Positions 15,273-42,998 of a DNA stretch of 64,000 nucleotides are shown piece after piece. How positions within the stretch are numbered: the first letter of the stretch is position 1; each line of letters opens with the position of its first letter. This DNA comes from Spirochaetota bacterium (GTDB taxonomy: Bacteria > Spirochaetota > UBA4802 > JAFGDQ01). The DNA is taken from positions 1 to 64,000 of the forward strand of contig JAXHTS010000007.1 in the NCBI GenBank assembly GCA_034190085.1, written 5' to 3'. The notes under the pieces were generated by a model, which was not told the origin of the DNA, made no database searches, and saw nothing but the letters and a program-made list of their open reading frames with translations. The position numbers and the translations under genes are program-made.

Positions 15273-15500
15273 ATGAATAAAAAACGCTATCTTCCAAAAA
15301 TATTCTATGATTGGTGCAAGGCCTGCGGAATATGCAGTGAATTTTGTCCCAAATCCGTAATTAGCAGGGATGGATACAGTGTTCCATTGATCGAGCATCC
15401 TGATAATTGCGTTGGATGCCGTTTCTGCGAATTGCATTGCCCAGACTTTGCTATTTCTATTGAAGAACTGGATGATGAAACTGAGGTAAATCAATCATGA
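15273..15500 (+). CDS. korD: 2-oxoacid:ferredoxin oxidoreductase, delta (ferredoxin) subunit
   Basis: 75 residues with two full 4Fe-4S motifs: CKACGICSEFCP (about residues 15-26) and CVGCRFCELHCP (about 46-57). Small two-cluster ferredoxins of this kind are the delta subunits of four-subunit 2-oxoacid:ferredoxin oxidoreductases, passing electrons from the catalytic core to soluble ferredoxin. It is the first gene of a D-A-B-C operon; its stop overlaps the alpha-subunit start by four bases (ATGA), implying translational coupling. The ATG at 15273 has only a weak AAAGGA upstream. Confidence 0.88.
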   Translation: MNKKRYLPKIFYDWCKACGICSEFCPKSVISRDGYSVPLIEHPDNCVGCRFCELHCPDFAISIEELDDETEVNQS

Positions 15501-16639
15501 CAAAGAGTGGATCCAATAAAAGGTTGCTTTTGCATGGCAATGAAGCTATAGTGGAGGGAGCATTAACAGCGGGATGTAATTTTTTTGCGGGCTATCCTAT
15601 TACTCCAGCCTCTGAGATCAGCGAGATATTATCTGTACGACTACCTCAGGCTGGGGGGACATTCATACAAATGGAGGATGAGATTGCCAGCATTGGAGCT
15701 GTTATCGGCGCTTCACTCGCAGGGGCCAAAAGCATGACTGCTACCAGCGGACCTGGTTTCTCGCTTATGCAAGAAAATTTGGGTTATGCCTGCATTACAG
15801 AGGCTCCCTGTGTAATAGTAGACGTTATGCGAGGAGGTCCTAGCACAGGATTGCCAACTAATCCGTCACAAGGGGATGTGATGCAGGCAAGATGGGGGAC
15901 ACATGGGGATCACCCTATTATTGTTTTGGCTGTATCCACTGTATTAGATTGTTTTGAAGTTACTGTTCAGGCCTTTAATCTATCAGAAAAATATCGTGTT
16001 CCTATAATCATTCTGTCAGATGAAGTAGTAGCGCATACCCGCGAGACTATCATACTTCCATCACCGGATGAAATTACAATCTTTGATAGAATTACACCCA
16101 GCAGACCTCCGGAATGGCACATACCCTTTGAGGATAACAGTCGAGGAGTCCCGCCCATGGCAGCCTTTGGAGATGGATACAGATATCATGTAACCGGACT
16201 CGTCCATGATATACATGGATTCCCTACTCAACGTCCTGATGAAATCCAAATATTCATGAGTCGTCTCTTTCGCAAGATCAGACAGGGTTTTCATGAAATT
16301 CAGATAACAGAAACCTTTATGATGGATGATGCTGAAATAGGAATTATAGCTTATGGCTCTGTCGCTCGTTCCGCCCGTAGGGCAATTCTTGATGCCCGTG
16401 AGAGTGGAATAAAGGCCGGAATGTTGCAGTTGATCACACTCTTCCCATTTCCAAGAAAAGCTGTAGAAAAGATGCTGGCGCAATGTCGGGCTGTAATAGT
16501 ACCGGAGATGAACATGGGACAGATAAGCAGGGAAGTAAAACGAGTAAACCAGGGCATGTCTCAGATCAGCCATTATAACCGTTTTGATGGCCAGTTGATA
16601 ACACCAGAGGGGATATACCGTGAGCTAATAAAGATGTAG
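15497..16639 (+). CDS. korA: 2-oxoacid:ferredoxin oxidoreductase, alpha subunit
   Basis: 380 residues. The pyrimidine-binding domain of the 2-oxoglutarate type: FFAGYPITPASEIS, MEDEIASIGAVIGASLAGA, TSGPGFSLMQEN, and GGPSTGLPT near residue 115. The C-terminal transketolase-like domain contains IAYGSVARSARRA. With the beta subunit it binds thiamine diphosphate and oxidatively decarboxylates a 2-oxoacid, giving acyl-CoA, CO2 and reduced ferredoxin. The D-A-B-C order and motif set favour 2-oxoglutarate or branched-chain oxoacids over pyruvate, but substrate is not settled by sequence. Starts in ATGA overlap with korD. Confidence 0.92.
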   Translation: MTKSGSNKRLLLHGNEAIVEGALTAGCNFFAGYPITPASEISEILSVRLPQAGGTFIQMEDEIASIGAVIGASLAGAKSMTATSGPGFSLMQENLGYACITEAPCVIVDVMRGGPSTGLPTNPSQGDVMQARWGTHGDHPIIVLAVSTVLDCFEVTVQAFNLSEKYRVPIIILSDEVVAHTRETIILPSPDEITIFDRITPSRPPEWHIPFEDNSRGVPPMAAFGDGYRYHVTGLVHDIHGFPTQRPDEIQIFMSRLFRKIRQGFHEIQITETFMMDDAEIGIIAYGSVARSARRAILDARESGIKAGMLQLITLFPFPRKAVEKMLAQCRAVIVPEMNMGQISREVKRVNQGMSQISHYNRFDGQLITPEGIYRELIKM

Positions 16640-16674
16640 GCTGTTATATATAATCTCAATATTAGGAGTTGAAT

Positions 16675-17526
16675 ATGGCAAAAAAGCCCACAAGAATAAT
16701 TCATAAATATTTGCGCCATGAAAAGAAGTTCCCACATGTCTGGTGTCCGGGCTGCGGAAATGGCATCGTAATGGGCGCTTTAGTACGAACTATCGACAGA
16801 TTGGGTCTAAGTAAAGACCAGATTGTTCTGGCATCAGGGATTGGTTGTTCCGGTAGAATGCCTGTTTACGTTGACTTCAATACACTGCATACCACTCATG
16901 GCCGCGTTTTAACCTTTGCCACAGGCATCAAACTTTCGAAGCCTTCTTTAACGGTCATTACGGTAATGGGAGATGGCGATGCCACTGCGATTGGAGGCAA
17001 TCATTTTATACATGCCGCAAGGCGCAATATTGAACTAACAGCAATAATTATCAACAACCAGATATATGGCATGACTGGTGGGCAGCATTCACCCACCACG
17101 CCCTATGGCAGCTTCGCCACAACAGCCTTATATGGAAATATTGAACATCCATTTTCAATTTCAGAATTAGCAGTAACAGCCGGGGGAGCATATGTTGCTA
17201 GAGGCACTGTTTATCATGTCCAACTTCTGGAAAAACTTATTGAAAAGGCAATTACTCACAATGGATTCAGCGTCGTTGAAGTTCTTTCAAATTGTCATAC
17301 TCAATTCGGTCGCAAAAATGATATGGTTGATCCTATAACAATGATGAAATTTTTTAGAGATCATGCTGTAGCGATAGAAAAGACACATGAAATGACGCAA
17401 GAATCTATGGAGGATAAGTTTACCATAGGCGTTTTAGCAGATTTACAGAAACCTGTTTATACAGAAGAATACAATAAAATAATACAAATGACAAAGAATA
17501 TAAGACCTGAAGAGGAAACCGAATGA
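16675..17526 (+). CDS. korB: 2-oxoacid:ferredoxin oxidoreductase, beta subunit
   Basis: 283 residues from the ATG at 16675, six bases after AGGAG (16664-16668); an in-frame TTG at 16669 is too close to that site. This is the thiamine-diphosphate-binding subunit: CPGCGNGIVMGAL at the N-terminus, GDGDATAIGGNHF then IIINNQIYGMTGGQHSPTTP for the diphosphate and Mg site. It pairs with the alpha subunit to form the active site in the cytoplasm. The stop overlaps the gamma start by four bases. The PTTP motif is usual for 2-oxoglutarate-type enzymes. Confidence 0.92.
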   Translation: MAKKPTRIIHKYLRHEKKFPHVWCPGCGNGIVMGALVRTIDRLGLSKDQIVLASGIGCSGRMPVYVDFNTLHTTHGRVLTFATGIKLSKPSLTVITVMGDGDATAIGGNHFIHAARRNIELTAIIINNQIYGMTGGQHSPTTPYGSFATTALYGNIEHPFSISELAVTAGGAYVARGTVYHVQLLEKLIEKAITHNGFSVVEVLSNCHTQFGRKNDMVDPITMMKFFRDHAVAIEKTHEMTQESMEDKFTIGVLADLQKPVYTEEYNKIIQMTKNIRPEEETE

Positions 17527-18110
17527 AAGACGATCGATATGAGATAAGGTTTAGCGGTTCAGGGGGACAGGGAATCATCACTATGGCAATCATCCTGGCT
17601 GAAGCTGTAGGAGTATATGACCAAAAATATGTATGCCAGACTCAGAGCTATGGGCCTGAAGCGAGAGGCGGAACCAGCAAAGCAGAAGTGGTTATTAGCA
17701 ATAAACCAATTGACTATCCCAAAGCAATAAAAACTGACCTGCTATTAGCCATGAATCAGGCATCATGCAATGCCTATTGCAGTGGTCTTAAACCTCAAGG
17801 ATTGCTTATTGTTGATTCTGGATTTGTTGAACAGATACCCTTCAATCGGGCTGTGGCCATCCCCTTTACGCAGATTGCCATTAAAGAATTAAAGAATCAA
17901 ATGGTTGCGAATATGATTGCCCTTGGAGCAATTGCATCTCTATCAGAAATTGTGTCTATAAAGAACCTGGAAAAAGCCCTGAAAGCAAGAACCCCCCAAA
18001 AAACTGAGGGAATAAACCTCAAGGCTCTTCATGCTGGCCTTCAATCTGTGAAGCAGTATGATATTACTAGTCTACCTGAATCCGAAACCTCTGAGGATGA
18101 GGATGTTTAA
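17523..18110 (+). CDS. korC: 2-oxoacid:ferredoxin oxidoreductase, gamma subunit
   Basis: 195 residues. FSGSGGQGIITMAIILAEA and QTQSYGPEARGGTSKAEVVI are the conserved blocks of the gamma domain, which binds CoA and completes the enzyme. It overlaps the end of korB (ATGA at 17523). It ends the operon; the C-terminus is acidic (SETSEDEDV). The four genes have the same order as the korDABC operons of anaerobes and some microaerophiles, so the electron acceptor should be ferredoxin. Confidence 0.92.
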   Translation: MKDDRYEIRFSGSGGQGIITMAIILAEAVGVYDQKYVCQTQSYGPEARGGTSKAEVVISNKPIDYPKAIKTDLLLAMNQASCNAYCSGLKPQGLLIVDSGFVEQIPFNRAVAIPFTQIAIKELKNQMVANMIALGAIASLSEIVSIKNLEKALKARTPQKTEGINLKALHAGLQSVKQYDITSLPESETSEDEDV

Positions 18111-18447
18111 TATCCGCTAATAGTTTAATTCTTCATCTTCTTTTCTCATTCAAAAACTGATATAATAACAGATATCTTAAAAAATCACCCAATATTTACC
18201 ACAATAGCATCTATATAAGATGCCTGATTTTCTTATCTAACAGTATTTTTCTCTTGACTTTCAAGGTCGATTCTGTTGTCGCTATTCTGTCAATTATAAT
18301 CAAACAAGTTTTACAATTTTACTTCATTATGTAGCTATAATATCATTGGATCTTTAATTACCACTATCCTCTGTGATGTTATACTATGAGGAATTAAGGT
18401 ATTGATAGATAATAAACAGATGCAAATTAATAAAGGAGTATGATCTA
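18111..18447. other. Intergenic region before the aldehyde oxidoreductase pair
   Basis: 337 AT-rich bases between two co-directional operons. A possible extended -10 (TG-T-TATACT, 18377-18385) lies 62 bases before the next ATG but has no good -35 partner. No clear terminator for the kor operon was seen. Confidence 0.4.
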
Positions 18448-18981
18448 ATGTCCAAGAAACTGACTGTAATACCTGAGCAATGCTCAGGTTGTAAAATATG
18501 CGAACTCGTTTGCTCGATCAAGCATTTCGGAGTAAACAATCCAAAAAAGTCAGCAATACGAGTTATGGTAACATATCCCCACCCTGTGATGAGGATGCCG
18601 ATTGTATGCAGCCAATGCAAGGCGCCCGTTTGCGAGCAGGTATGTCCAGTCGACGCCCTGCGCCGTGTAAATGGTGTGGTTCAACTGGATGAGTCTGTCT
18701 GCATATCATGCTACAAATGTGTAGAGGCATGCCCCTTTGGGGCGATATATGCTCATGATGACTGCGAATATCCTATTAAGTGCGATATGTGCAACGGAGA
18801 GCCTGAATGTGTAAAAAAATGCCCCAAAGGAGCGCTTATGCTTATTCCTGAAGTTGTGTTAGGCGAATCGAAACGCCTTCATAATTTATTGAGCTACACC
18901 CAAATGAAGGAAATCGAGTTTTACGAGAGTGGGGAGAAGAAGATTATCCATTATGCAGAGATAGGTAAGGAAGAGCTATGA
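18448..18981 (+). CDS. Four-cluster ferredoxin, electron-transfer subunit of aldehyde oxidoreductase
   Basis: 177 residues with four cysteine groups in the DmsB/HycB pattern: CSGCKICELVCS, CSQCKAPVCEQVCP, CISCYKCVEACP and CDMCNGEPECVKKCP. They would bind four 4Fe-4S clusters. The gene overlaps the downstream aldehyde oxidoreductase by four bases (ATGA), so the two should be made together. This matches the AorA-AorB pairing known from Aromatoleum, where the small subunit moves electrons from the tungsten subunit to a partner. No signal peptide, so cytoplasmic. A purine-rich AAGGAG precedes the ATG. Confidence 0.88.
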   Translation: MSKKLTVIPEQCSGCKICELVCSIKHFGVNNPKKSAIRVMVTYPHPVMRMPIVCSQCKAPVCEQVCPVDALRRVNGVVQLDESVCISCYKCVEACPFGAIYAHDDCEYPIKCDMCNGEPECVKKCPKGALMLIPEVVLGESKRLHNLLSYTQMKEIEFYESGEKKIIHYAEIGKEEL

Positions 18982-20807
18982 CAATAAAGAGTGGATATTT
19001 CAAGAAGCATATGCATGTCAACCTGACAACAGGGAGGATAGAGCGTCAAAACCTTTCAGATAAATTTATTGAAAGATATATCGGTGGCAGGGGATTTGGC
19101 GCAAAAATGGTGTGGGAAAATCTTAAGAAGCACAATTATTATATAGATCCCCTTGGTCCAGAAAATCTCATAGTTATTGCCCCTGGTCCCCTCACAGGAG
19201 TATATTTACCGGCATCTGGGAAATGCTCATTCATTGCCATCTCACCGGCTACTAATATGTATGGGGATTCATCTGCTGGCGGCGGATTTGGAGTTGAACT
19301 TAGACAGTCAGGAATCGATGTCCTCTCCATTGACGGCAAGTCTGACAAATTATCCATCCTCTTTATTGACAACGATGAAACGACTATCATTCCCATGCCT
19401 GAACTAAAGGGAAAGAGTTGCCTGGAGACTGAGGGTATCATTTTGGAGCGACTCGGCACTCATGCGGTCCATGTGGCTACAATAGGAATAGCTGGAGAGA
19501 ATATGATAAGATTCGCATGTATCAACACCGATTGGAGTCGAAATGCCGGAAGGACAGGCATCGGGGCAATCATGGGTTCCAAAAATCTTAAAGCCATCGT
19601 GGTGCGAGGATATGAAGACATTCCCGTTTTTGATATCAAGGGGCTAATGGATGAGGCTGATAGGGCTTATAAATATATGGTTGAACATAAATACTTTAAA
19701 CTTTGGCAGCAGCAAGGATTGATGAACGTAATCGAATACGCAAACGAAAAGGGGATCCTGCCAACCTACAACTTCAAGGACAGTGTTTTTGCCAAACATG
19801 AGCAGATTAATGGCACAAAGATGCTGGATCAGTATAAGATAGGCGACAGCGCATGCTTTGCCTGTTCTATGTGTTGCGGCAACATCTGTCTTGTAAAGAA
19901 CGGAAAGTATACCGGCACTGTAACTGAGGGGCCTGAATACGAGACCTGTGCTATGCTGGGCTCAAACCTCGGTATTGACAATTTTGCAGCAATACTATCT
20001 GCAAGCAGACTATGCGACGAATTGGGTGTAGATACAATCTCAACTGGCAACATTGTTGGAGCTGTGATCGAGGGTTATGAACAGGGTATACTAACTCTAG
20101 CTGACCTTGATGATAGGAAGATATCCTGGGGTGACGAGGATGCAATAATAGACCTGATTCAGAAGATCGCCATGCGTCAGGGAATTGGAGACATCCTTGC
20201 AGATGGCTCTCGTAAAATAATTGAGAGATGGCCTGAGATGGATAAAATAATTCTTCAGGTAAAGGGTCTTGAACAGTCAGCCTATGACAGCCGTGCTGGC
20301 ATATCCATGGGTTTGGCCTACGCTACATCCGACATAGGCGCTCATCATACCCGCGCCTGGACAATAGCCAAGGAGATGGAGGAGGGACAAAATTGGTCTG
20401 ATGAGGTTAAGGTTGACACAGTTATATATCACCAAACCCTGCGTCCGCTATTCGATATGCTTGGTGTATGCCGCCTTCCATGGATAGAGTTGGGTCTGAA
20501 TGAACTGCACTATGAAAATTTTTACAGATATGTAACTGGAAGGGATGTAGGTCTTGAACACCTTTTGAAGCTCTCTAATGATATCTATGATCTAACCCGC
20601 TTGATAAATGCCCGAATGGGTATCAGCAGAAAGGATGACACGCTACCATACAAGGTTCACTCTCGCCCAGCGCTTACAGGACCAAATGCGGGCAAGGTAA
20701 TCGATAGAGAAGAATTTGAGAAGCTCCTTTCATTATACTACAAAAAACGAAATTGGAACAACAATGGCGTACCAGATTCAGAAATGGAGAATAAATTTGA
20801 GGACTAA
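18978..20807 (+). CDS. aor: Tungsten-containing aldehyde:ferredoxin oxidoreductase
   Basis: 609 residues, the usual length. RYIGGRGFGAKMVWENL, APGPLTG, SAGGGFGVELRQSG and GRTGIGAIMGSKNLKAI are the tungstopterin-binding blocks. Cys293, Cys296, Cys300 and Cys498 correspond to the 4Fe-4S ligands of the Pyrococcus enzyme (288, 291, 295, 494). The family oxidises aldehydes to acids with ferredoxin as acceptor, or runs in reverse. Relatives also include class II benzoyl-CoA reductase BamB, so the substrate is open. The coupled four-cluster protein upstream supports electron exchange with ferredoxin or another redox partner. It lies after the kor operon, consistent with ferredoxin-linked fermentation. 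Confidence 0.93.
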   Translation: MTIKSGYFKKHMHVNLTTGRIERQNLSDKFIERYIGGRGFGAKMVWENLKKHNYYIDPLGPENLIVIAPGPLTGVYLPASGKCSFIAISPATNMYGDSSAGGGFGVELRQSGIDVLSIDGKSDKLSILFIDNDETTIIPMPELKGKSCLETEGIILERLGTHAVHVATIGIAGENMIRFACINTDWSRNAGRTGIGAIMGSKNLKAIVVRGYEDIPVFDIKGLMDEADRAYKYMVEHKYFKLWQQQGLMNVIEYANEKGILPTYNFKDSVFAKHEQINGTKMLDQYKIGDSACFACSMCCGNICLVKNGKYTGTVTEGPEYETCAMLGSNLGIDNFAAILSASRLCDELGVDTISTGNIVGAVIEGYEQGILTLADLDDRKISWGDEDAIIDLIQKIAMRQGIGDILADGSRKIIERWPEMDKIILQVKGLEQSAYDSRAGISMGLAYATSDIGAHHTRAWTIAKEMEEGQNWSDEVKVDTVIYHQTLRPLFDMLGVCRLPWIELGLNELHYENFYRYVTGRDVGLEHLLKLSNDIYDLTRLINARMGISRKDDTLPYKVHSRPALTGPNAGKVIDREEFEKLLSLYYKKRNWNNNGVPDSEMENKFED

Positions 20808-38313: not shown

Positions 38314-39609
38314 CTAAGCAACCTTCTCCTGTTTTTCTATATTTGGGTAAAGAGGAAGATATTTTGAACACAACATATATACTAAAGCCATACTGGCAAA
38401 GATGCCCAGGGTAAGAAACCACTCCTGCACCGTTGGACTATAGGATTGGAATTCCTTCCATGGAAAATTGGGTACTGAAAAACCATGTATTGTAGCGTTT
38501 ACTCTGTTCATTATCATACCTAGGGTTGCTGATCCCACACCGATTATTAAAGTCTTTTCAGTCTCTCTAAATTTTCTAATATTTAGCAATATCACAGGGA
38601 TAAAACACGCTACCAATTCAAGGACTAACATCCACAGTCCAAATGGCCCGCCCCACAAATCCAAATAACTTCTATCAAATAATGGCACGAACTCGGCAGA
38701 CATGCTATAGACATCCCACATCCTGTAGATAAAATAAATAATGAACATAAAACCTGATACACGCGCAAGACTTACATATGTTTTGAAAGGTACAACCTCA
38801 ACCTTTTTCATCTTTCCAGCAAACCAAGTCACTAAAACAGTAAATGAAGGACCAACAGAGACGGCTGATAGAACAAATATGAAGAAGGTATGCGGGATGT
38901 GAGTAAATACCTCAGGCCTATACCAGCCGGGCTTTGCAAAGAGAATTCCATATGTACCCCCCAAAGAACCCTGATGAAAGAATGAAAGAAATGTTCCAAC
39001 AGCTGCTGCTATCCACATCAATTTATGCATATAATGAGTAATTTTATGTATTATTGGATTTTTATCCAGAAATGGATGCTCAAGCACTATTGGCGTAAAT
39101 TCAATTACTAATATCGTAAAGTATAAAGTAATACAGAAAATAACCTCTGTTAGCATGGAGTTTGGCAGGAGATGCTCACCCCAGTTGGGGTATATGTAAG
39201 CGAATGGAACCCTTAAAGGCTGACCAACATCAAAAAGAAGAAACATGAATGTAAAAGCATAACAGAGAAGACCAATCAAAATTGCAGAGTTAATGATTGG
39301 TTGGAACTCATCCCTTCTAAAGATGTATAATATAAATGAAGTGAAAAAGGCCCCTCCACCAAGGACAATAAGGCTCAAGTCCCCAGCTATCCAGATCCCC
39401 CAACCCATAATGTTGTTTAAATCAGTAAAGCCTAAACCCAAAAGAATTACCTGAAGGCCCGCAAATGCAAAACCTGCAGCAAATATAAGCAAGATAAATA
39501 TGCTAATTTTCACCTTCTTTGAGTAACTGAAAAACTCTCCTACAACACTATCAACGGCTAACATACCTATTTGAAAAATTTGCTTCCCTAAAACGATTAT
39601 TCCATTCAC
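38314..39609 (-). CDS. qrcD: NrfD-like integral membrane subunit of a Qrc-like complex
   Basis: 431 residues from a GTG at 39609, seven bases after AAGGAG. A longer frame from an ATG at 39669 would overlap the preceding gene by 28 bases and has no site. About ten membrane segments with WGIWIAGDLSLIVLGGGAFF, the start pattern of the NrfD/PsrC family, and LFDVGQPLRVPFAYIYPNWGE. In CISM-type complexes this subunit holds the quinone site. Last gene of a cytochrome, molybdopterin-like, ferredoxin-like, NrfD operon, the exact order and size series of Desulfovibrio QrcABCD. Symbol given by context. Confidence 0.75.
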   Translation of the reverse strand: MNGIIVLGKQIFQIGMLAVDSVVGEFFSYSKKVKISIFILLIFAAGFAFAGLQVILLGLGFTDLNNIMGWGIWIAGDLSLIVLGGGAFFTSFILYIFRRDEFQPIINSAILIGLLCYAFTFMFLLFDVGQPLRVPFAYIYPNWGEHLLPNSMLTEVIFCITLYFTILVIEFTPIVLEHPFLDKNPIIHKITHYMHKLMWIAAAVGTFLSFFHQGSLGGTYGILFAKPGWYRPEVFTHIPHTFFIFVLSAVSVGPSFTVLVTWFAGKMKKVEVVPFKTYVSLARVSGFMFIIYFIYRMWDVYSMSAEFVPLFDRSYLDLWGGPFGLWMLVLELVACFIPVILLNIRKFRETEKTLIIGVGSATLGMIMNRVNATIHGFSVPNFPWKEFQSYSPTVQEWFLTLGIFASMALVYMLCSKYLPLYPNIEKQEKVA

Positions 39610-39641
39610 TGTGTATCTCCTTCTTCTCTTTTGGGAGTTTA

Positions 39642-40433
39642 TTAAAACCGCATCATCTTGCGGATCCATTCATGGCTTGTTAAATAATATACCTTTGGTT
39701 CCGGATACAGTTTCTTCAACTTCTGCTTTTTACTTTCCTCCCATTCATCAACTGTATGCACCAACCTAAATGCCCGATTGCTCTTAATAAGTTTTGAAAT
39801 CCTTGTAGTAGGATCATTCAGATCGCCAAATACTATTGCCTCTGTGGGACATGCTGAAACACATGCAGGTGTGTACTCCACCGCATTAATATCTGTAATT
39901 CCTTTTGCAACAGCCTTATCTCTCTCCCTCTTCCAGATGTGGCTGCAAAAAGTACATTTCACGACAGTACCCCTTGATGCTATTGAAACATCAGGATTGA
40001 GTGATTCTTTAAAGGTACATTCATATCTGGGTTTCCACCAGTTGAATACTCTAGCCTCATAGGGACATGCCGCGATACAATACCTGCATCCAAAACATCT
40101 CGACCATATTTGGCTTACAACTCCATCATCACCAATATCCGTTGCTGTAACAGGACATACAGAAACACAAGATGGGTTTTCGCATTGCTGACACATCTTT
40201 GGAATGTATACAACCTTAACATCACCGTATTCCAAATCATTCTCTCGATCATTGGTAACCTTCATTAACGTCAGAAAGGATACTCTCTTGGGAATATTGG
40301 AATCATCCTCAAATATTGGCATGTTGTTTTCCTGCATACATGCGACCTCACACATGCCACATCCCGTACATTTGTCTAAATCTATGACCATCCCCCATTT
40401 CCTCTTCATCATTCCCAATTCCCTTCTTTTCAT
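39642..40433 (-). CDS. qrcC: Four-cluster iron-sulfur subunit of a Qrc-like complex
   Basis: 263 residues; ATG at 40433 after AGAGGTGA. Cysteine groups in the DmsB/PsrB/NrfC pattern: CTGCGMCEVAC, CQQCENPSCVSVCP, CFGCRYCIAACP, and a split group CTFC...ACVSACP. ARVFNWWKP is the linker typical of the alternative complex III and Qrc ferredoxin subunits. It would wire the periplasmic molybdopterin-like protein to the NrfD quinone site. It carries no signal of its own, so export would be with the molybdopterin-like partner. Eleven bases follow the preceding gene. Confidence 0.85.
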   Translation of the reverse strand: MKRRELGMMKRKWGMVIDLDKCTGCGMCEVACMQENNMPIFEDDSNIPKRVSFLTLMKVTNDRENDLEYGDVKVVYIPKMCQQCENPSCVSVCPVTATDIGDDGVVSQIWSRCFGCRYCIAACPYEARVFNWWKPRYECTFKESLNPDVSIASRGTVVKCTFCSHIWKRERDKAVAKGITDINAVEYTPACVSACPTEAIVFGDLNDPTTRISKLIKSNRAFRLVHTVDEWEESKKQKLKKLYPEPKVYYLTSHEWIRKMMRF

Positions 40434-40443
40434 AATTCACCTC

Positions 40444-42426
40444 TTAGCTAATTTTGATCCTCGTATGCCACCAATCAGCAATTCCAGAAATAGGATCTAT
40501 ATCATCAGACATAATTCTCTTTGGATTGATCCCTTTGTGTTCAGCATATTTGGTATAATCATCATGACCGAATCCAAGTGGGATAGCAACCACCTCAGGA
40601 GCAACAGTTTTGGTTAGGTGAACCTTAAGCCCTTCAATTTCTCCTCTGCTTGAGATGATATCAATCGAAGAACCCTCAGAGACACCATGCTTCTTTGCGG
40701 TAATGGGATTCATCTCTACCCATAACCTTTTTCCGGAAAGGGTTTTCCCATCAATGCTCTTTAGGACATAAGGGAAAGCAAGTCCGCTCCCATCACCAAC
40801 TAATCGAATCTCATATGGTATTAATGTCAGAGGATATTCTGACTCACCTTCAACCATTTCAGTTATTTTAGTATAATAATTCTTGAAAAGCTTAATTGGA
40901 AATGCATAATTGGTCGCTTCCCTTATCTCAACCTTTTCCGAAAGCTTGATAATATCCTTATAACTATCCACAGGGAATAGATGTTTAATCGATTTAATCT
41001 CCCTAGCGATTTTAAGAATAATATCGCCAGCATGCAATGATTCATATCTCGGCGCTACCGGTTCATTACTCCTTGAGGTTGCCATCTCTATAGATGAAAT
41101 GGTTGGTAGTATATAATCTGAATAATGGGCTGTATCGTTAACAAGTGGTGTCATTGAAACGACCATTGGGATATTTTTCATCTTTTGCGAAAAAAGCTTT
41201 CCATATACACTACGGTGAACTGGATTGGCCTCATTTATTATTAAGATTCCAATGTCATCAACATTTTTTATAAAATCATCGAGTCCCTTTGCCTTATTTG
41301 AAGAGGTTGCATATCTGCCAAGTGTATTGTTCAACCTAACAGAGACCCCACCCCTTTTATTAAAGTTATTTACGAGGTTGTTCAAAGACTGAACCGCAAT
41401 AACCTCTGCAATCGATGAGGAGACCTCAACACCACCCTTTCCGGCAACCGCTAAAGGTCTTCTGGCAGAAGCGAACTCTTTCGCAAGCTTTTCAATTTCA
41501 TCTTCACTTATCCCAGTAATCTTGGATACCCTATCAGGGGTGTACTGATTGATGACTATCTGAGACCAACTGGAAAAATAGGATCCGCTGGAGCGCTTGC
41601 CCATCTTTATGAGATGATGAGCAATCCCTAATGCCAATACACCCTCAGTTCCAGGCCTTATGGGAATCCAATTATCCGCTATAGAAGCGGTTCTTGTGCA
41701 GAGTGTATCAATATGTACAAATTTCACTCGCCTTCTTTTCCAATTTGCAAAGGCCTTGTGAATCCGCGCCGTATCTCCCCACCCCTCCAAAATCCTTGCT
41801 CCAAAACTAATAATATAATCTGCATTCTCAAAATCATAGTCCAGACAACCATCCAACCTTTGTGTAATCTTCACTGCGGCATTGGATATTGTATTCAGGG
41901 ATGGCTCAAAGAAGACCTTAGAACTACCTGTAGAACTAACTAACCTCTCAACAAGCAGGTTAGATGCATTTCGCTTTCCACCTGTAATCGCAACAATGCT
42001 ATCTGTTTTATTGGTATTAATTAAGTCTGTTATTCTTGATGAAATATCCTTGATTGCTGTATCCCATGATACAGGAATAAACTTACCCGATCCTTTATTC
42101 CCAATCCTTTTCATGGGCTGCTTGATCCTCTCAGGATGATATAACTCCTGAAGCGCAATCTGACCCATAGCACACCCTGCATTAGAGGTTTCAACCTTGA
42201 CCGCCCGATCTCCTATCATCCTGATGGTTATATCAGATCCACAATCTATGCATCTACTCTTAACCAACACCTCCCTTCCTTTGGCAGAAGCATATTGGTC
42301 CTGAGTCCATTCGACAACCCACTGTAAGGATAAAAAGGGAGCCCCACTACAAAGCGTCCCAACGGCTCCACCAGCAAACACACCACCAGCCATTGATAAA
42401 AAATCTTTTCTATCTATTTTTTCCAT
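40444..42426 (-). CDS. qrcB: Molybdopterin-oxidoreductase-family subunit, degenerate, of a Qrc-like complex
   Basis: 660 residues; ATG at 42426 after GAGGAGC. N-terminal export signal DRKDFLSMAGG with Arg-Lys in place of twin Arg. The 4Fe-4S site is incomplete: CIDC then GSDITI where the third Cys should be, and CAMGQ where CxKG is usual. The pterin-fold blocks are kept (RPGTEGVLALGIAHHLI, GKGGVEVSS). Loss of ligands is what is known of QrcB, which holds no molybdenum and acts as a structural relay. Its size and place between a multiheme cytochrome and a ferredoxin support Qrc over polysulfide or thiosulfate reductase. Confidence 0.78.
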   Translation of the reverse strand: MEKIDRKDFLSMAGGVFAGGAVGTLCSGAPFLSLQWVVEWTQDQYASAKGREVLVKSRCIDCGSDITIRMIGDRAVKVETSNAGCAMGQIALQELYHPERIKQPMKRIGNKGSGKFIPVSWDTAIKDISSRITDLINTNKTDSIVAITGGKRNASNLLVERLVSSTGSSKVFFEPSLNTISNAAVKITQRLDGCLDYDFENADYIISFGARILEGWGDTARIHKAFANWKRRRVKFVHIDTLCTRTASIADNWIPIRPGTEGVLALGIAHHLIKMGKRSSGSYFSSWSQIVINQYTPDRVSKITGISEDEIEKLAKEFASARRPLAVAGKGGVEVSSSIAEVIAVQSLNNLVNNFNKRGGVSVRLNNTLGRYATSSNKAKGLDDFIKNVDDIGILIINEANPVHRSVYGKLFSQKMKNIPMVVSMTPLVNDTAHYSDYILPTISSIEMATSRSNEPVAPRYESLHAGDIILKIAREIKSIKHLFPVDSYKDIIKLSEKVEIREATNYAFPIKLFKNYYTKITEMVEGESEYPLTLIPYEIRLVGDGSGLAFPYVLKSIDGKTLSGKRLWVEMNPITAKKHGVSEGSSIDIISSRGEIEGLKVHLTKTVAPEVVAIPLGFGHDDYTKYAEHKGINPKRIMSDDIDPISGIADWWHTRIKIS

Positions 42427-42485
42427 GAATTCGATTGCTCCTCTTGAATTATTTTGTATGCTTTTATATTATAATTTGTATCCTG

Positions 42486-42998
42486 TCAATCATGACAAAC
42501 AGCGCAGGTATTGCTTATCTTTAGAGCATCATGACAATCCATACATCTTCCCATCTTCATTTTACCAGTAATCTTTTCAGTTGAAGTAGAATTTGCTTTA
42601 TCTCCATGGCAAGAAGCACATCCCACCCTTTTGGGGGATGCCAAGACAACCTTATGACTAAAGTAGACAAGATCAGGTTGTTTGGAAAAAGGTTCCCATG
42701 GAATATCAGTATCATTATAATTCATAAAAGCTTTCACCTCTTCTGCATCTTCACCATTATGACAATCCTTACAATCGTTAACACTAGGGATACCCATAAA
42801 CCTTCCATTATCATAGTACTTATGACACGTGTCGCAACTCCCTACATCATACTCAGATAGATGAGCCTGATGATTGAATGGTATAGGTTTTTGAGCCTGA
42901 AAATTCATTGTATAATCACAGGCTTTTTGAAATACAATAAACGAAATAAAGGCAATTACTATAAAGGGGATGAAAAATAGCAGGGCTAGACGTTTCAC
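42486..42998 (-). CDS. qrcA: Pentaheme cytochrome c of a Qrc-like complex
   Basis: 170 residues from a GTG at 42998 with AAAGGAG upstream. An uncleaved-looking signal anchor (residues 5-27) precedes five CXXCH haem sites: CDTCH, CKDCH, CASCH, CMDCH and CAVCH, with FNHQAH supplying a distal His in the cytochrome c7/c3 manner. It would sit on the outer face and accept electrons from periplasmic donors such as hydrogenase or formate dehydrogenase. Desulfovibrio QrcA has six haems, so this is one fewer. First gene of the four-gene operon, 60 bases before the molybdopterin-like gene. Confidence 0.85.
   Translation of the reverse strand: MKRLALLFFIPFIVIAFISFIVFQKACDYTMNFQAQKPIPFNHQAHLSEYDVGSCDTCHKYYDNGRFMGIPSVNDCKDCHNGEDAEEVKAFMNYNDTDIPWEPFSKQPDLVYFSHKVVLASPKRVGCASCHGDKANSTSTEKITGKMKMGRCMDCHDALKISNTCAVCHD

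Follow-up and report, generated by a model that had tools for sequence, protein, structure and literature searches.

A four-gene operon in a member of the Spirochaetota very probably encodes, judging from its sequence, a QrcABCD-type complex, that is, a periplasmic cytochrome c:menaquinone oxidoreductase, coupled to periplasmic hydrogenase. The operon lies in what we call the window, the whole 64,000-nucleotide stretch of contig JAXHTS010000007.1 (positions 1 to 64,000; assembly GCA_034190085.1) that was analysed, and belongs to a host genome of 4.27 Mb in 86 contigs. Its genes run on the minus strand from 42998 to 38314 in the order A-B-C-D, with all four open reading frames at the expected coordinates:

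QrcA, 42486..42998, minus strand: membrane-anchored c-type cytochrome of 170 aa with a GTG start, five CXXCH motifs and an N-terminal signal anchor.
QrcB, 40444..42426, minus strand: molybdopterin-oxidoreductase-like protein of 660 aa with a Tat-like N-terminus in which RK replaces RR.
QrcC, 39642..40433, minus strand: ferredoxin-like protein of 263 aa with four Cys clusters (16 cluster Cys).
QrcD, 38314..39669, minus strand: quinone-reactive membrane subunit of the NrfD/PsrC family, 451 aa as called.

QrcA and QrcB are separated by about 59 bases and QrcB and QrcC by about 10, and the called frames of QrcC and QrcD overlap; comparison with relatives places the true QrcD start probably about 35 codons downstream of the called one.

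A sequence-only reading had identified these genes as subunits of a Qrc-like menaquinone reductase in QrcABCD order, and profile scores, QrcD residues, phylogeny and the loss of the Mo ligand in QrcB all agree with that identification. The top NCBIfam model for each of the four genes is the matching Qrc subunit: 111 bits versus 43 for the runner-up in QrcA, 336 versus 169 (PhsA) in QrcB, 286 versus 151 (DsrO) in QrcC, and 356 versus 120 (HybB) in QrcD, so that the Qrc models beat the next family by about 1.9 to 3-fold in bits across all four subunits. Each score falls under the curated equivalog cut-off (180, 440, 400 and 570, respectively), a value that marks an annotation threshold and not a biological one; among other QrcD proteins of the same clade, an acidobacterial sequence scores 574 against the cut-off of 570 and another spirochaete sequence scores 326. 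Chance resemblance is excluded by E-values of 1e-32 to 1e-106 and by the recurrence of the operon in the same gene order in 20/20 fetched relatives, in one of which it is cut by a contig end. The window QrcD is the single NrfD-family gene of its genome.

For D. vulgaris QrcD, published work assigns positions to the menaquinone site and to the proton path from the cytoplasm (PMC13059093, PMC6303296, PMC8076601). Of 20 literature-listed residues that were mapped, a set that excludes R358 and E413, 18 are identical in the window: I67, D70, Y88, D93, N100, Y110, D120, S138, M139, L140, E142, Y150, E157, E164, H182, S196, H199 and S202. These include D70, Y110, S138 and Y150, mutation of which in D. 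vulgaris prevented growth on formate/sulfate (PMC13059093) and which correspond to window residues D97, Y137, S171 and Y183. Residue spacing is correct over two ungapped blocks, which are set apart by a single insertion of six residues located between D120 and S138. The two differing positions are F63, which is W in the window, and R87, which is L; the latter has a conservation of just 53% in Qrc (PMC8076601). A Kyte-Doolittle scan of QrcD recovered seven membrane segments versus the ten expected, and this simple scan was taken as insensitive. A profile search of the PDB found no solved relative of QrcD, while a tblastn search of plasmids with QrcD returned only HybB-type proteins at 24-27% identity.

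The electron-transfer subunits retain Qrc features as well. QrcA has one N-terminal transmembrane segment and five CXXCH motifs; published accounts give Qrc six hemes. Since five motifs are present in all 34 QrcA proteins of the genome_contigs loci, Desulfobacterota included, and six were never seen among them, this count does not set the window apart from Qrc. All four Cys clusters of QrcC are kept, along with the Tyr of the CRYC motif, which reads CFGCRYC in the window and is of the Qrc type, whereas ActB reads CVGTRYC (CxxTRYC). This residue, Y118, is the probable equivalent of D. vulgaris QrcC Y113, the two being equated through a one-residue offset from Desulfovibrio homologues; the Y113 mutant did not grow on formate/sulfate (PMC13059093, PMC6303296, PMC8076601).

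An intact catalytic Mo ligand in QrcB had been named beforehand as an observation that would count against Qrc. The ligand is not intact: at the aligned position the window has N, and its relatives have A, D, H, W, K or C. The third Cys of the FS0 set is missing in the window, the set is complete in many relatives, and it is lost again in Desulfovibrio, a patchy pattern to be expected of a subunit without a cofactor under selection. QrcB thus probably lacks a catalytic cofactor and is not a catalytic molybdoenzyme. About nine residues before the fourth FS0 Cys are missing in spirochaete QrcB compared with other Qrc, and the Tat-like motif is mostly RK in spirochaete QrcB and RR in the Desulfobacterota. 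A PDB profile search with QrcB matched only general Mo enzymes. In a QrcB tree the spirochaete proteins form a clade separate from the sampled Mo enzymes, which did not include true PsrA/PhsA; these were compared with QrcB through HMM scores only. The position of ActB beside Desulfovibrio in this tree is probably due to long-branch attraction, and the placement was not used.

Periplasmic partners, predicted from the operon, are present in the genome. Two [NiFe] hydrogenases score over the NF033181 cut-off, each with a small subunit of the Tat type and with a tetraheme cytochrome encoded in its operon, but with no membrane subunit; the operon of hydrogenase 2 also carries an octaheme cytochrome. 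The tetraheme cytochromes, of which the genome has several, are c3-like, yet under the cut-off of every curated model, and no FeFe hydrogenase was found in the genome. In 12/12 relatives examined the hydrogenase has a tetraheme-type cytochrome upstream of it, with three CXXCH motifs matched in one. The qrc genes do not adjoin a hydrogenase in the window genome; in one relative (G117) a hydrogenase is directly upstream of qrc, and in another (G174) a single strand carries, in order, tetraheme cytochrome, protease, small subunit, large subunit, qrcA, qrcB, qrcC and qrcD. Within the order, hydrogenase is encoded by 30/34 genomes with Qrc and 2/12 without (Fisher p ~1e-5, without correction for kinship). 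Futalosine-type menaquinone genes (MqnC-like, MqnE-like and MenG/UbiE) lie on the contig of hydrogenase 2. The tetraheme cytochrome, which would be fed by a hydrogenase without a membrane subunit, is a candidate electron donor to Qrc.

Several other loci were seen in the same genome. Hydrogenase 1 has beside it two tandem glycyl radical enzymes (L059:13617-18807, contig C52), which score far under all curated cut-offs, the best match being HpsG-like at about 450 of 1000 bits. The contig of hydrogenase 2 (C40) also encodes adjacent 26- and 16-CXXCH cytochromes near exported proteins (L060:9255-12460), possibly an extracellular electron conduit. On a further contig (C57; L062:4990-6586), a membrane protein, an HmcF/TmcB-like ferredoxin fragment and a tetraheme cytochrome are clustered and possibly form a minimal Tmc/Hmc-like complex.

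The data presented above lead us to propose a model for Qrc in this organism, in which cofactor loading, electron flow and its direction are those we infer. Soluble, Tat-exported [NiFe] hydrogenases without a membrane subunit would exchange electrons in the periplasm with the tetraheme c3-like cytochromes, from which electrons would pass to the QrcA hemes, then to the FeS clusters of QrcC, and on to QrcD, where menaquinone would bind close to the periplasmic face. QrcB would be a structural relic of a molybdoenzyme. The QrcD channel would supply cytoplasmic protons for quinone reduction, thereby building a proton-motive force, while operation in reverse would spend this force to drive electrons from menaquinol to H2. 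Qrc is characterized by electrogenic menaquinone reduction with an H+/e- of 1.

The sequence-only reading had also envisaged a periplasmic electron route like that of sulfate reducers, with formate dehydrogenase (FDH) as a second entry point. Hydrogenases and tetraheme cytochromes that could serve such a route are encoded, whereas the formate branch is doubtful, and periplasmic FDH has been downgraded as a Qrc partner. The periplasmic FdhA homologue of the genome reads GIRGYSATV versus ARIUHSATV in selenocysteine-containing (Sec) relatives, so that both the Sec/Cys ligand and the His are lost, which makes this homologue an unlikely way for formate to supply Qrc in this genome. The gene belongs to an FdhA/FdhB-like Tat operon (L052:7187-12395, contig C35) in which FdhA scores 1016 bits with FDH-N, GY replaces UH, and a gene for a 454-aa protein without a Pfam hit follows; two members of the family (G087 and G170) also carry non-Sec FdhA copies, one reading SH. 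Three further Sec-containing FDHs of the genome keep UH and have no obvious export signal, and NuoE/F-like genes adjoin two of them. FDH-N alpha occurs in 28/34 genomes of the order with Qrc and in 5/12 without.

No dsrA was found in the window genome, and the gene is absent from 25/34 Qrc-bearing members of the order and present in nine; Qrc in this order is thus not tied to sulfite/sulfate reduction. DsrA scores over the cut-off in 10/46 genomes of the order (G042, G050, G071, G082, G102, G158, G195, G198, G213 and G222); most of the corresponding loci (e.g. L246, L247, L248) show another hit, of DsrB-like type, and some have a DsrC-like gene nearby. The window genome encodes FeS oxidoreductases that are anchored in the membrane, carry CCG domains and belong to the general class linking acyl-CoA oxidation to quinone, and these are candidates for the menaquinol partner of Qrc. 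Elsewhere in the window (15497-20807), inspection by eye alone suggested a series of genes for subunits of a 2-oxoacid:ferredoxin oxidoreductase, for a ferredoxin and for a protein resembling aldehyde ferredoxin oxidoreductase.

These observations bear on the direction of electron flow. The same complex may work mainly in reverse, re-oxidizing menaquinol at the expense of proton-motive force and disposing of electrons as H2 through the tetraheme cytochrome and hydrogenase during syntrophic growth, a reading to which we give somewhat less than even weight. The lack of both dsrA and FeFe hydrogenase in the genome is in keeping with it, the CCG-domain proteins could deliver electrons from acyl-CoA oxidation to quinone, and Qrc has been reported to be reversible and important in syntrophic growth (PMC6303296, PMC13059093); syntrophy in a qrc-bearing spirochaete would then be plausible. 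However, direction cannot be told from sequence, and the 26- and 16-CXXCH cytochromes offer a possible alternative electron outlet. Those same cytochromes, located beside other exported proteins on their contig, raise the prospect that Qrc exchanges electrons with multiheme cytochromes for extracellular electron transfer and not with hydrogenase. We consider this unlikely, as it is hydrogenase, not a large multiheme protein, that co-occurs and clusters with qrc across the order.

The placement of the complex among its relatives was addressed with a DNA pattern made from published QrcD residues only, which was verified on known loci and then scanned against GTDB genomes (genome_contigs). Among the matches listed were loci from Desulfobacterota, Spirochaetota, Acidobacteria and Bacteroidetes, mostly with qrc neighbours, and at least four more distant loci from Chloroflexi. 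In a QrcD tree of 73 rows, the spirochaete sequences fall inside a Qrc clade with 100/98 support, where they form a clade of their own (100/99) with the window basal within it, sister to Desulfobacterota plus Acidobacteria/Bacteroidetes (100/98). ActC, DsrP, NrfD-type, HybB/HmcC and Chloroflexi sequences lie outside the Qrc clade; a tree of the NrfD subunit, one of the checks suggested by the sequence-only reading, thus groups the window QrcD with Qrc and not with Psr/NrfD-type, DsrP, HybB/HmcC or ActC proteins. The NrfD proteins from Chloroflexi metagenome-assembled genomes (L106, L128, L153 and L162) have the Qrc residue pattern and branch just outside Qrc (91/77); they possibly represent an undescribed Qrc-like complex.

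Two other identities for the operon, a catalytic reductase of the polysulfide, thiosulfate or DMSO type and an alternative complex III, are very improbable and already largely refuted. QrcB and QrcC do belong to the same superfamily as these enzymes, PhsA and ArrA models and structures match QrcB, and ActB-type proteins of about 1000 aa occur in other Spirochaetota; however, the Mo-ligand position of QrcB is unconserved, and in the tree QrcD is separate from ActC as well as from the remaining NrfD families. Alternative complex III was rejected because QrcB and QrcC are separate with no ActB fusion, QrcC has CxxCRYC in place of CxxTRYC, and QrcD is outside the ActC clade. Psr/Phs was rejected on the lost Mo ligand and a QrcD outside the PsrC/NrfD clade, with PsrA/PhsA compared via HMM scores only. 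Least credible of all is contamination, or the recent acquisition of the operon by a single assembled genome from a sulfate reducer. The assemblies are of metagenome type and contamination is estimated at 1.9%, but the spirochaete QrcD clade (100/99) lies outside the Desulfobacterota clade, the operon is found in 34/46 sampled genomes of the order, and flagellar genes are borne on the same contig as the window. The figure of 34/46 rests on QrcB-type hits among 393 sampled genomes of the phylum, in which the remaining hits are mostly ActB-type proteins of about 1000 aa.

Comparison with known systems shows that the architecture and residues of the spirochaete Qrc are as known, and that its deep lineage and metabolic setting are new. 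With QrcABCD of the Desulfobacterota (Nitratidesulfovibrio (Desulfovibrio) vulgaris) it shares gene order, subunit families, the menaquinone and proton-path residues of QrcD, a four-cluster QrcC, a QrcB free of the Mo ligand, and soluble hydrogenase and tetraheme cytochrome as candidate partners. It differs in the roughly nine residues missing before the fourth FS0 Cys of QrcB, in the use (mostly) of RK for RR, in the six additional residues between D120 and S138 of QrcD, and in a host without dsrA; its subunits are about 25-50% identical to non-spirochaete Qrc and form a separate deep clade. QrcD from Acidobacteria and Bacteroidetes metagenome-assembled genomes groups on the Desulfobacterota side, not with the spirochaetes. 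Qrc of Blakebacterota, taken here from the literature (PMC9727166), is likewise outside the Desulfobacterota, in hosts largely without DsrABC. Alternative complex III (ActABCDEF) of other Spirochaetota is related, with a pentaheme cytochrome and QrcB/C-like and NrfD-like subunits, but has a single fused ActB of about 1000 aa, a CxxTRYC motif and an NrfD subunit of a different clade. HybB/HmcC of group-2 hydrogenase and Hmc are likewise NrfD-family quinone-reactive subunits fed by hydrogenase, but they form a separate clade, and the window protein favours QrcD by 356 versus 120 bits.

In a survey of 2021, QrcD occurred in Deltaproteobacteria alone (PMC8076601), and as late as 2026 Qrc was ascribed to sulfate reducers of the Desulfobacterota (PMC13059093). 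The earlier statement that Qrc is known from sulfate reducers needs widening, since after that survey a Qrc was assigned in a sulfate-reducing acidobacterium (PMC10564751) and the complex was reported in Blakebacterota largely without DsrABC (PMC9727166). No description of a spirochaete Qrc came to light in a literature search, which covered few subscription papers. It is conceivable, though we regard it as rather doubtful, that Qrc is not primarily a sulfate-respiration complex, and that hydrogenase, tetraheme cytochrome and Qrc form an old module, present as a separate, deeply branching lineage in an order mostly without dsrA; the module may be older than the role it has in sulfate reducers, or of independent origin.

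The recurrence of qrc across a whole spirochaete order indicates that sulfate reducers are not the sole users of this energy-saving route. A deep, order-wide Qrc, clustered in some members with hydrogenase and a tetraheme cytochrome, suggests that the electrogenic redox loop also serves other metabolisms, and would give grounds for expecting uncultured spirochaetes to take up H2 or to produce it in syntrophy. The spirochaete QrcD proteins also constitute a second set of sequences against which to judge which QrcD residues matter.
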